This document shows, piece by piece, positions 24,706-27,468 of a stretch of 44,610 bases of DNA. The DNA is from Bacteroidales bacterium (GTDB lineage Bacteria; Bacteroidota; Bacteroidia; Bacteroidales; P3): contig JAFSYK010000039.1 of assembly GCA_017449975.1 (NCBI GenBank), forward strand, positions 1-44,610, given 5' to 3'. Every line of letters begins with the position of its first letter. Positions within the stretch are counted from its first letter, which is position 1. The notes under the pieces were generated by a model. The model made no database searches, was not told the origin of the DNA, and saw nothing but the letters and a program-made list of their open reading frames with translations. The position numbers were made by a program, and so were the translations under genes.

Positions 24706-24794
24706 AACCACCTAGCCCCATCTCAATAACCCATAACCAATAACCACTAACCATTCATTCGCCTTAACTACTATTAATTAGAGCGAGTCCAAAA
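24706..24794 (+). repeat. Repeat tract after mltG
   Basis: Contains CTCAATAACCCATAACC, AATAACC, ACTAACC, ATTCATTCGCCTTAACTACT. It is a partial third copy of the dispersed repeat at 18.7 and 23.6 kb. This starts a gap of 325 bases with no intact gene; the rest holds two gene-end remnants and three hairpins listed separately. Confidence 0.55.
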
Positions 24795-24851
24795 TCACAG
24801 CTTCGCCAGAATTTTGTTCCGTGTGTGGCGGACGCCGGAACCGAGCTCTGA
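24795..24851 (-). pseudogene. Remnant 3' end, copy 1
   Basis: On the minus strand it encodes SELGSGVRHTRNKILAKL followed by TGA, very close to the C terminus SELGSGIRHTRKKILEKIN of the gene at 25748. About 42 of 50 bases match (24802-24851 against 25758-25807), and most changes keep the amino-acid pattern. No matching upstream part of the gene remains. It is read as the leftover end of a relative of that gene. Confidence 0.7.
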
Positions 24852-24861
24852 ATGCCCGTTC

Positions 24862-24938
24862 GGCTGGAATTGTAATCCAGCCGTTGAGACTATAAGGATT
24901 TGTAATCCTCTTCATAGTTGGCGGATTGAAAATCCGCC
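24862..24938. repeat. Three consecutive GGATT...AATCC hairpins
   Basis: Hairpin 1: GGCTGGA/TCCAGCC (24862-24882). Hairpin 2: AGGATT-TGT-AATCCT (24895-24909). Hairpin 3: GGCGGATT-GAA-AATCCGCC (24920-24938). All share the core GGATT, short A/T/G loop, AATCC, with different outer bases. None is followed by a T-run, so they are not simple terminators. They resemble a REP-like palindrome cluster. Confidence 0.7.
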
Positions 24939-24947
24939 CGAACACCT

Positions 24948-25000
24948 TTATCCCTGCAACTTCTCCAAAATCTTCTTGCGGGTGTGGCGGATGCCGGGTG
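24948..25000 (-). pseudogene. Remnant 3' end, copy 2 (direct repeat)
   Basis: On the minus strand it encodes PGIRHTRKKILEKLQG and TAA. Bases 24961-24997 match 25758-25794 at 36 of 37 positions. Homology stops abruptly after CCGG. Together with the intact 3' end at 25758 it forms a direct repeat around the 50 aa/DUF6169 gene pair. Confidence 0.75.
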
Positions 25001-25030
25001 GGTGACGAAGAGTGTGGGGTGATGGTTTGC

Positions 25031-25522
25031 CTATTTATAGGCGTACTCTAGATCGGAGAGTACTCTGTCAAACGATGCTGTGATGGGTTGCACTTCAGGG
25101 GGGTCTTTCCGAACGATGAGCGAGATGTATTGCAGCTCCCCCTCATAGGGTACTTCACGCTGAAGCAGTAGATATTTGTCCTTGTCGGCGTAGGCGTTAA
25201 ACCAACGGTTGAAAAGACGGTTGCGTGCCGCCTGTCGTCCATCCATCGAATCGCAGATATAAAGTAGACCCTTGGCCCTCGACTTGAAAAACTCCTCCAT
25301 CAAGGCGACCACGACCTCATACACATGACCATCGGCTTCAGCATGTACTTCGGTATCGAGACAGTACTGGTAGATGCCGTACTCATAAAAAAGATGGTCT
25401 TCGATGAAAGCAACATGGTAGGATCGCTGCTTGCTAGTGACAAAGAAAAAAGATCCTGACTGGTCAGAATCTATCTTGTAGGGGGATTTTGCATTGACAG
25501 CGGATAACGAAATCAAATCCAT
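25031..25522 (-). CDS. DUF6169-like hypothetical protein
   Basis: The 163-residue soluble protein resembles Bacteroidota DUF6169 proteins (recognition from memory). Visible features are an N-terminal beta-rich region (YKIDSDQSGSFFFVTSKQRSYHVAFIED), the conserved-looking LLYICDSMDGRQAARNRLFNRWF (about 86-108) and a C-terminal YISLIVRKDPPEVQPITASF. No catalytic motif is recognised. Its ATG overlaps the stop of the 50-residue gene upstream (TAATG, 25520-25524), implying translational coupling. The pair sits between direct repeats of a neighbour's 3' end, so it may be a mobile cassette. A toxin-antitoxin or similar two-part role is a guess from layout only. Confidence 0.7.
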   Translation of the reverse strand: MDLISLSAVNAKSPYKIDSDQSGSFFFVTSKQRSYHVAFIEDHLFYEYGIYQYCLDTEVHAEADGHVYEVVVALMEEFFKSRAKGLLYICDSMDGRQAARNRLFNRWFNAYADKDKYLLLQREVPYEGELQYISLIVRKDPPEVQPITASFDRVLSDLEYAYK

Positions 25523-25674
25523 TATTTGACAATGGCAATTTGTTTAATACCCATCTTCTCCATCTCCTCGCGGGTGGCGTTCTGACGCACGGCAGCCGTC
25601 CAACGCTTACGCATCGACATGGTATTGTCGAACATTTTGCGGATGTCCTTCGGGGTGCTGATTATCGTTTCCAT
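25522..25674 (-). CDS. Small basic protein, partner of DUF6169-like gene
   Basis: The 50-residue product (METIISTPKDIRKMFDNTMS at the start, EKMGIKQIAIVK at the end) is Lys/Arg-rich with a central helix MRKRWTAAVRQNATREEMEKM. The ATG at 25674 is preferred to one 33 bases upstream, because a TATTTTTG promoter element at 25722-25729 leaves a normal leader. It overlaps the DUF6169-like ATG by one base. The small-first, coupled layout is like many toxin-antitoxin modules, but no known toxin or DNA-binding motif is recognised, so the function is open. Confidence 0.65.
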   Translation of the reverse strand: METIISTPKDIRKMFDNTMSMRKRWTAAVRQNATREEMEKMGIKQIAIVK

Positions 25675-25721
25675 TTGTCTATCAGTTTGATGTAAATATA
25701 TTGGCATCTATATTCACTCTG

Positions 25722-25729
25722 CAAAAATA
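25722..25729 (-). promoter_or_regulatory. -7 box for the 50 aa/DUF6169 pair
   Basis: The minus strand reads TATTTTTG (TAnnTTTG), 47 bases before the ATG at 25674. No clear TTTG -33 box is seen. It lies between the intact gene end at 25748 and the pair, so the cassette carries its own promoter element. Confidence 0.5.
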
Positions 25730-25747
25730 CAACTAATTTTGAAACAG

Positions 25748-26296
25748 TTAATTTATTTTCTCCAAAATTTTCTTGCGGGTGTGGCGGATGCCGGAGCCGA
25801 GTTCTGAGGGTTCAATGAGGAGTAGGCTTTGGCGTAGCTCGGCGAGTAGTTCGGGGTAGGGGAGGCTGAGCGTGTAGGCCAGCTTCATGCAGAGTGTTCG
25901 CACGCCGTAGGGTTCTTCGGGCATCATCAGGTGTTCCAGGCTGAAATTGAGCAACTGAACGTAGGGGCATACCCCTGTGTATGCCCTTGATTCCGAATCG
26001 GCTCCATCATCTGTTTCGTTATCGGGTGCCGTCCATTCCAACCTTTCGAGCAGTGCCAACGTGAGTCTTCGCAGCGAGGTGTTGGGGGTTGTGACGGCTA
26101 GACTCACCAGCGCATCGCGGTGGGCATCAAAGGTGTCGTTGTCGCTCTTGGGCAGGTGCGTCAACGCCCATGCTGAATGCACGGCATCTTCGCAGTTGTC
26201 GCCCCACAAGGCCTCGAAAAGTGCGTCGCACACCGCCGCATCGCTGTGCGCATGCTGCGCCAGCGCCTTGATTTCGTCAACATGCATCGTCGCCAT
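25748..26296 (-). CDS. Helical-repeat (HEAT-like) hypothetical protein
   Basis: The 182-residue product is nearly all helical, with paired-helix units such as AVCDALFEALWGDNCEDAVHSAWALTHLP, DALVSLAVTTPNTSLRRLTLALLERLEW and GVRTLCMKLAYTLSLPYPELLAELRQSL, suggesting a HEAT-like solenoid. The function is unknown. The ATG at 26296 lies two bases after the stop of the MalY/PatB gene, so they are likely co-transcribed; longer upstream frames overlap that gene. An acidic and palindrome-encoded insert (SRAYTGVCPYVQ, near 105-117) interrupts the repeats. Its last 13 codons are duplicated twice downstream. Confidence 0.65.
   Translation of the reverse strand: MATMHVDEIKALAQHAHSDAAVCDALFEALWGDNCEDAVHSAWALTHLPKSDNDTFDAHRDALVSLAVTTPNTSLRRLTLALLERLEWTAPDNETDDGADSESRAYTGVCPYVQLLNFSLEHLMMPEEPYGVRTLCMKLAYTLSLPYPELLAELRQSLLLIEPSELGSGIRHTRKKILEKIN
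25758..25807 (-). repeat. Direct-repeat parent: 3' end of the HEAT-like gene
   Basis: This intact copy matches 24961-24997 (36 of 37 for 25758-25794) and 24802-24851 (about 42 of 50). The three copies are in the same orientation. The spacings between copies hold three hairpins (between copies 1 and 2) and the 50 aa/DUF6169 pair (between copy 2 and the parent). Confidence 0.75.
25961..25986. repeat. GTAGGGGC-type palindrome inside a coding region
   Basis: Begins GTAGG; stem GGGCATAC (25965-25972), loop CCCTGT, GTATGCCC (25979-25986). The form GTAGGGGC...GCCC is like dispersed palindromes found between genes in many bacteria. Here it lies in frame in the HEAT-like gene, encoding RAYTGVCPYV. 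Confidence 0.7.
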
Positions 26297-26298
26297 GG

Positions 26299-27468
26299 TT
26301 ATCGCAAGGCTGCTTCGATACGCTGCAAGGCATCCAGAAGGACAGATCGGGGGCAGCCAAGGTTCATGCGAAAACAGCAGGCGTAGGCATCGCCGCCGAA
26401 GGTGGTGCCGTCGTTGAGTGCCACCTTGGCTCTGTTGATGAGGCGGTCGGACAATTCTTTGTGGGATAGTCCGTAATCGCTGAAATCGAGCCAGGCGAGG
26501 TAGGATGCTTCGGGCAGTACGACTTTCACTCGTGGCATCTGTTCTTTCAGGAAGGTCGCCAGCGTCTCTGCATTGGTTTTCAGGTATTCCAGCATTTGCT
26601 GCAGCCACTCTTCGCCGTGGGCAAAGGCGGCTTCGGCGGCGGTGAAGGCGAAGATGTTGCCACCCGCCACACCGAGTGCGTCGAGCCAGCCGAAAAAGCG
26701 TTTTCGCAGTTCGGGATTGGCGATGTGACAGACGGAGCTGCCGAGTCCGGCGATATTGAATGTCTTGCTGGGTGCCATAAAGGTGAGGCTGTGGCGCGCT
26801 GCCGCCTCGCTGACGGTGCTGTAGCTCACATGCCGGTGGGGTGACAGGGTGAGGTCGGCGTGTATCTCGTCGCTGACGACCAGCAGACCTTTGTTTTCAC
26901 AGATATCGGCGATTCGCCGCAGCACCGCTTCGCCCCAAACCGTTCCGGCGGGGTTATGCGGATTGCTGAGGATAAACAGCTTGCATCCTTCTGCCTTGCG
27001 TGCGAAGTCGTCGAAGTCGATGGCGAAGCGTCCGTTTTCGATTTTCAGCGGGCTGCATACCAGCGTGCGACCGCTCTCGCGTGGCAGGTTGAGGAAGGGT
27101 GGATAGACCGGCGTGGTCACCAGCACACGGTCGCCAGGCTGCGTGAGGCAGAGCAGGGTGTAGGCGATGCCCGCCACAATTCCGGGAATGAAATGCAGTG
27201 TTTCCTTGGTTGTCTGTATGTAGTAGTGTTTATCAAGCCATGCTGTCGTCGCCTGCCAGTAGGCTTTTGACGGCATGGTGTAGCCCAGCACCTCGTGTTC
27301 GCAGCGACGGCGTAGGGCCTCCATCACGAAATCCGGCGAGCGGAAATCCATGTCCGCCACCCACATAGGGGTGAGGTCGTCGTGTCCGTACATTGCCGGC
27401 AGCGCATCCCATTTGAAGCAGTCGGTTCCCCGCCGCTCGATGATTTCGTCGAAGTTATAGTGTGTCAT
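26299..27468 (-). CDS. patB: MalY/PatB-type PLP-dependent C-S lyase
   Basis: The 389-residue fold-type I PLP enzyme resembles MalY/PatB cystathionine beta-lyases. It shows the N-terminal MWVADMDFRSPDFV and LGYTMPS, the NPHNPAGTVW motif, VSDEIHADL (PLP-pyridine Asp), the Schiff-base Lys in MAPSKTFNIAGLGSS (about 235) and the C-terminal FRMNLGCPRSVL with the carboxylate-binding Arg. It likely cleaves cystathionine or cysteine conjugates; exact substrate choice is not readable. Length is typical. The ATG at 27468 matches the family start (YNFDEIIERRGTDCFKWD). It is followed after two bases by the HEAT-like gene and preceded by the mini-GNAT gene. Confidence 0.92.
   Translation of the reverse strand: MTHYNFDEIIERRGTDCFKWDALPAMYGHDDLTPMWVADMDFRSPDFVMEALRRRCEHEVLGYTMPSKAYWQATTAWLDKHYYIQTTKETLHFIPGIVAGIAYTLLCLTQPGDRVLVTTPVYPPFLNLPRESGRTLVCSPLKIENGRFAIDFDDFARKAEGCKLFILSNPHNPAGTVWGEAVLRRIADICENKGLLVVSDEIHADLTLSPHRHVSYSTVSEAAARHSLTFMAPSKTFNIAGLGSSVCHIANPELRKRFFGWLDALGVAGGNIFAFTAAEAAFAHGEEWLQQMLEYLKTNAETLATFLKEQMPRVKVVLPEASYLAWLDFSDYGLSHKELSDRLINRAKVALNDGTTFGGDAYACCFRMNLGCPRSVLLDALQRIEAALR

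Follow-up and report, generated by a model that had tools for sequence, protein, structure and literature searches.

Integrative elements are known to enter the 3′ ends of protein-coding genes, as phage 21 and e14 do in icd, and a dedicated integrase is expected to leave a common core. Integron gene cassettes are small units that lie between direct repeats at variable sites. In GNAT-type toxin-antitoxin modules such as TacAT and AtaRT, a short upstream gene is coupled to the gene for a GNAT-fold protein. To our knowledge, the movement of small toxin-antitoxin-like pairs without transposases is poorly understood. A further precedent comes from fungal mitochondrial mobile ORFs: in one account (PMC3630166), the inserted carboxy-terminal end replaces the native end, which is left downstream, and in atp6 the native end lies about 1 kb downstream, beyond the mobile ORF.

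Here we analyse a 44,610-nucleotide stretch of a Bacteroidales genome (contig JAFSYK010000039.1; hereafter the window), in which the end of one gene recurs twice downstream of a two-gene unit. An earlier note on this DNA had described three copies of the gene end in the same orientation, of which copies 2 and 3 encode tails with stops, and a two-gene unit with its own promoter box between copies 1 and 2. All of these were recovered in our comparisons, as listed below.

24802-24851, minus strand: copy 3 of the gene end, 42 of 50 bases identical, ending in GVRHTRNKILAKL and a stop at the position where relatives usually stop
24852-24960, no strand assigned: remainder of the copy 2 reading frame and REP-like palindromes (GGCGGATTGAAAATCCGCC, GGCTGGAATTGTAATCCAGCC)
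24961-24997, minus strand: copy 2 of the gene end (from the repeat comparison), 36 of 37 bases identical, followed by a stop of its own (...EKLQG and stop)
24998-25030, minus strand: 33-bp spacer from the DUF6169 stop to copy 2, outside the DNA common to the pair's relatives
25031-25522, minus strand: DUF6169 protein, 163 aa, PF19666 with E 2e-21, GNAT-like in its AlphaFold model
25522-25674, minus strand: 50-aa partner protein in the antitoxin's position, its stop overlapping the DUF6169 start
25708-25747, minus strand: promoter region of the pair (TTG...TATTTTTGC type), common in the genus
25748-26293, minus strand: resident gene, 181 aa, no Pfam family, its last codons (IN and stop) on the insert side of the repeat
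25758-25807, minus strand: copy 1 of the gene end (from the repeat comparison), within the intact resident gene

The span given in the earlier note ended at 25807, while the gene itself reaches 26293. Its 'HEAT-like' label for the resident gene is not supported, as searches of Pfam, PADLOC and NCBIfam up to an E of 1 gave no family for this gene. An aminotransferase gene (26299-27468, minus strand) precedes the resident gene. On balance, we favour the reading that the unit is a horizontally moving gene pair, most likely of toxin-antitoxin type, which inserted at the resident gene's 3′ end, within its last codons, and was likely captured by host recombination or repair.

When the window was compared with itself for direct repeats of at least 30 nt separated by 300-3000 bp, the gene-end repeats took the top two places (E 3e-10 and 4e-8), and the next-best repeat had an E of 0.001. 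The repeat in copy 1 ends 10 nt before the last base of the resident gene. Read as protein (by eye for copies 2 and 3), the tails are KKILEKIN in copy 1, KKILEKLQG in copy 2 and NKILAKL in copy 3, each followed by a stop. On the coding strand, the junctions read by eye are ...GAGAA-AATAAATTAA for the resident gene (EKIN and stop), ...GAGAA-GTTGCAGGGATAA for copy 2 (EKLQG and stop) and ...GCGAA-GCTGTGA for copy 3 (AKL and stop). Beyond the junction, copies 2 and 3 continue alike (GYTG), and the resident gene diverges from both at this point. Read most simply, these junctions place the entry of the pair after GAGAA, with the last codons of the gene drawn from the insert and copy 2 as the gene's former end. 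Two successive events at nearly one spot may have made copies 2 and 3.

Copies 1 and 3 differ at eight positions, five of them third codon positions, and the same proportion (5 of 8) was found between the two copies of a second case, at an AraC-type gene, described below. Pooled, 10 of 16 differences compare with an expected one third (binomial probability 0.016), which suggests that part of their divergence took place while the copies were coding sequence. Such divergence fits a tail from another allele and, equally, a duplication or an old paralogue. DNA similarity was dropped as a means of identifying the native tail, as the tails of 38 relatives gave no decision (20 nearer copy 3, 15 nearer copy 1, and 3 ties).

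Several dispersed sequences were observed around the repeats. REP-like palindromes occupy 24852-24945, between copies 2 and 3, and a related array is present on another contig of the window's own genome (G000:C27, L049:925-1360). A CATAACCAATAACC-type repeat lies at 24720-24772, after mltG, with about 50 matches listed in the window's own genome. Another REP-like palindrome, GGGGCATACCCCTGTGTATGCCC, is found in frame inside the resident gene (25960-25987), and this short sequence is dispersed across other genomes of the genus; several alignments of the resident gene to relatives break at residues 95/113. Elsewhere in the window, a Bacteroidales small SRP RNA (RF04183, 19580-19686) overlaps the starts of two opposed ORFs.

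The larger protein of the pair scores 76.2 bits against the PF19666 profile, the curated cut-off of which is 27, and is assigned to DUF6169. No mention of this family was found in the literature searched, and the analysis supplies a structural reading of it: the AlphaFold model appears to have a GNAT-like fold, and the VIA-align list for the structure consists almost solely of acetyltransferases, a result also compatible with other folds. The acetyl-CoA P-loop motif [RQ]xxGx[GA] was found before the central helix in none of the eight sequences of A1 and occurred in one of the eight sequences of A2, at residue 117, away from the expected loop. A sequence search of PDB returned no match. For neither protein of the pair was a nuclease family detected in PADLOC or Pfam, and NCBIfam gave only matches below threshold. 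The short gene is coupled to the second gene, as in type II toxin-antitoxin systems: in the window, the stop of the former overlaps the start of the latter, and in 26 of 28 loci a short ORF terminates no more than 60 nt from the start of the DUF6169 gene, a count made without a chance control. Most likely, the two genes form a putative toxin-antitoxin-type pair. The promoter stretch was considered as an element end and rejected: the same promoter type was present at 20 of 20 other fetched places, where inspection by eye put it ahead of genes for ribosomal proteins, tRNAs and others, and thus marks no element boundary.

We then turn to the distribution of the pair. With the DNA of one related locus (L064) as query, and the best two candidates scored per genome, the pair was detected in at least 5 of 121 genomes of the genus (G000, G030, G469, G470 and G501); G469, G470 and G501 match loci L063, L064 and L065. 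Among 61 genomes including the window's own, the 50-aa partner was found in two and DUF6169 in three, one of these distant. The only DNA common to the window and four fetched relatives is 25031-25743, that is, the pair with its promoter. Loci L064 and L065 represent one common site, and the mutual resemblance of L063, L064 and L066 is confined to the pair, which makes four sites when the window's is counted. DUF6169 proteins of L063 to L066 are 90, 85, 84 and 82% identical to that of the window, whereas the resident genes in the same genomes are 44 (one partial match), 57, 48 and 40% identical to the window's. As far as the DUF6169 stop, L064 and L065 agree at 98% identity; directly beyond it, their sequences differ. 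The different sites, the higher conservation of DUF6169 (82-90% against 40-57% for the resident gene) and the divergence of L064 and L065 at the stop together argue that the pair has moved between lineages.

The closest named relatives of the window are Bacteroidales genomes, three of them from yak rumen or red deer. Among the records searched, one plasmid match was obtained (distant, Spirosoma), together with two phage matches on unannotated 'Bacteriophage sp.' contigs and none among viral contigs. Two candidates were discarded. A tail-like stretch beyond the pair in G030 (L047:1082-1121) is at chance level (E 1.3), and L064 could not serve as an empty-site test: the cluster downstream is rearranged in G493 and G495, so this site provides no clean empty site.

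The surroundings of these loci showed further features. L064 and L065 show 98% identity across 6.5 kb, and the resident genes of their genomes are 57% and 48% identical to the window's; given this difference, the two genomes may not be one species. In L065, the pair is followed by a gene for an AbiEii-type nucleotidyltransferase with a small upstream gene (L065:8113-8995), and this stretch stands where L064 has its second repeat copy. Neighbouring genes with near-identical start regions (L064:7104-8138, L065:9444-12038) are rearranged between relatives.

The layout seen in the window recurs at a second, unrelated gene. In a genome of another family (G326), a distant pair follows an AraC-type gene, and the gene-end stretch recurs with 53 of 61 bp identical; the repeat ends 12 nt before the last base of the gene, and the second copy is placed one base after the DUF6169 stop. 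None of seven AraC orthologues has a comparable second tail copy, the best downstream match to their own tail being 30-38 of 72, compared with 53 of 72 in G326. The window and the AraC case are the only two clear gene 3′ ends among the brackets. At L064, the pair is bracketed by a 55-bp repeat (95%) that represents the upstream region of a DUF4837 gene, in a neighbourhood where the cluster is shuffled in relatives. The repeat at L067 consists, by eye, of a decayed DUF6169 end plus terminator, and the 94.6% match between L067 and L070 begins at the upstream repeat. The remaining six brackets consist of palindromes, terminator-like sequences or dispersed repeats, for which other causes are possible.

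Direct-repeat brackets within about 400 bp were found at 10 of 34 DUF6169 loci and at 7 of 733 control intervals (Fisher p 1e-10, which is nominal because intervals overlap), in a test designed after brackets had been noticed in DUF6169 loci. Control intervals were taken from the genus and the order, and the DUF6169 set includes other classes too, as well as two groups of loci that share a site (L064/L065 and L067/L104). With the window left out, L067 and L104 merged and L194 added, 8 of 33 loci are bracketed (p 3e-8). The other 24 of the 34 loci, L063 and L065 among them, are unbracketed, and no bracket was seen at L066, L053 or L194, which stood outside the 34-locus test. In the window's own genome, 20 stretches of 20 kb outside the window (400 kb of 2.31 Mb) contained no comparable gene-end bracket. 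This control yielded 31 further repeat pairs, spread over 7 of the 20 stretches. Inspected by eye, they are of low-complexity, palindromic, paralogue or within-gene type, and a single low-complexity pair (L175) touches gene ends.

Some bracketed or repeat-rich loci have unusual neighbours. In G856, DUF6169 is encoded within an array (L110:8273-12686) whose repeated segments measure about 115-290 bp and are spaced at roughly 1 kb. On a phage-labelled contig (L163:1454-5037), a candidate defence pair (PADLOC PDC-M62A/B, distantly PtuA/PtuB) adjoins a bracketed DUF6169 pair and sits between what appear to be two parts of a glycosyltransferase gene, of which only the second matches Pfam.

The earlier note had proposed that a cassette inserted at the gene 3′ end in the manner of an att-site element, and had observed that no integrase was present. 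The latter was borne out: no recombinase family was detected among the 37 window ORFs of at least 90 aa, in the small ORF or in the resident gene, and a cognate integrase, the mark of an integrative element, was thus not found there. Insertion itself is supported by the other sites of the pair in relatives, the single tail at 29 relative loci of the resident gene and the AraC case, but a strict att-site mechanism is not supported, as the modelled fold of DUF6169 is GNAT-like and not that of a recombinase, no recombinase family was detected among these ORFs, and no shared core was found. The comparison for a common att core took in eight of the ten bracket repeats (all but L110 and L067, the latter at the site of L104) and revealed none; the longest shared word was 8 nt, a length reached by 167 of 200 shuffles. 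The repeats vary in length (37-78 bp for the shorter brackets) and in target, and this variability is better explained by host repair or one-sided homologous joining. Site-specific integration in trans, with the pair either as cargo between attL/attR-like ends served by a recombinase encoded elsewhere or as the remnant of a larger integrative element, is in our opinion a rather doubtful alternative. Its strength is the layout, which is that of integration at a gene 3′ end: an intact end upstream, a displaced end downstream, repeats of 37-61 bp and codon-like differences between them. It is weakened by the same lack of a recombinase family among the window ORFs and of a core common to the eight repeats.

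A different origin of the repeats would be a series of tandem paralogues that decayed one after another, leaving copies 2 and 3 as the ends of former full-length neighbours. The resident gene is present in 34 of 61 genomes (own genome counted), and we scanned about 1.5 kb downstream of it at 29 relative loci (27 from the genus, 2 from the order). None has a downstream tail copy, the best ungapped match being 28 of 51 compared with 40 and 38 of 51 in the window, and none gives a sign of tandem copies. Likewise, tandem paralogues with the pair between them, which the earlier note had named as the mark of gene decay, did not appear in the relative loci searched. Neither the pair nor mltG adjoins the resident gene in any relative locus inspected. 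Surroundings of the gene differ in relatives, and neither an empty site with the same synteny nor, in a close relative, an exact one was detected; a single tail is present in relatives that lack the pair. Among the matches listed for the 121 genus genomes (best five candidates scored per genome), no resident-gene DNA exceeded 81% (over partial length), short repeats aside. The aminotransferase gene, upstream of the resident gene in the window, is on its downstream side in the five relative loci that have both within 1.5 kb.

Decay draws its support from copy 3: its stop position and its residues V and N are common in relatives, many of which have similar endings (for example, NKILKSL and stop), and most of its differences from copy 1 fall on third codon positions. 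Against it stand the missing tandem copies at the 29 loci, the occupation of other sites by the pair, and the repetition of the layout in the AraC case. We consider decay improbable overall, though somewhat less so for copy 3; of the two readings, insertion is the better supported. Another possibility is a homing-type element that, like the atp6 elements of fungal mitochondria, brings along a foreign spare for the 3′ end of the gene it targets. Such an element would share its anatomy with the cases described there (PMC3630166) and could account for codon-like differences between copies, but it is very improbable given that the DUF6169 model is GNAT-like and not endonuclease-like and that the pairs adjoin many different targets.

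Insertion of a mobile pair with capture by the host, the reading that we prefer, would proceed as follows. A compact unit, the 50-aa partner plus the DUF6169 protein with its predicted GNAT fold, would insert into the last codons of the resident gene, after which 37 bp of the gene end would flank it on both sides. The upstream copy would complete the gene, with the insert side contributing a few codons as well as the stop, and the old gene end would be stranded downstream of the unit. An earlier event of the same kind would have left copy 3 beyond the REP-like segment. As the unit has no recognisable DNA-joining enzyme, we infer capture through recombination or break repair of the host cell; joining could occur by filling of a staggered break or through one-sided homology, an integrase acting from elsewhere being a less likely route.

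More tentatively, and with the balance of our expectation against it, DUF6169 pairs might constitute a recombinase-free, toxin-antitoxin-like class that repeatedly enters gene ends, terminators and REP palindromes, leaving target duplications of 37-78 bp and the target gene intact. If this were true, selfish gene pairs could spread while sparing the host gene and encoding no mobility of their own. The junctions can be read: two unrelated genes each have their end repeated on either side of the unit, and eight brackets are of other kinds. The joining mechanism is therefore testable. Duplicated gene ends about 0.8 kb apart may provide a signature for finding similar cassettes.

Compared with known systems, the pair resembles TacAT and AtaRT in that a short upstream gene is coupled to a protein of predicted GNAT fold, but it has no P-loop motif [RQ]xxGx[GA] where expected, and its partner is just 50 aa long. 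DUF6169 pairs are similar to integron cassettes as small units between direct repeats at variable sites, although the repeats of different loci are unrelated. The closest anatomical parallels appear to be integration at gene 3′ ends and the fungal mitochondrial mobile ORFs. As with phage 21 and e14 in icd, the gene end is rebuilt, the displaced end is found on the other side, and differences between copies are mostly silent; in contrast to these elements, the unit contains no integrase, the interval between copies 1 and 2 is about 0.76 kb, and the brackets of different loci have no shared core. As in the account of the fungal elements (PMC3630166), the host gene is fused to an inserted end and the native end lies downstream, but the mobile ORF there is an endonuclease, whereas the window carries a putative GNAT-fold protein with a short partner.
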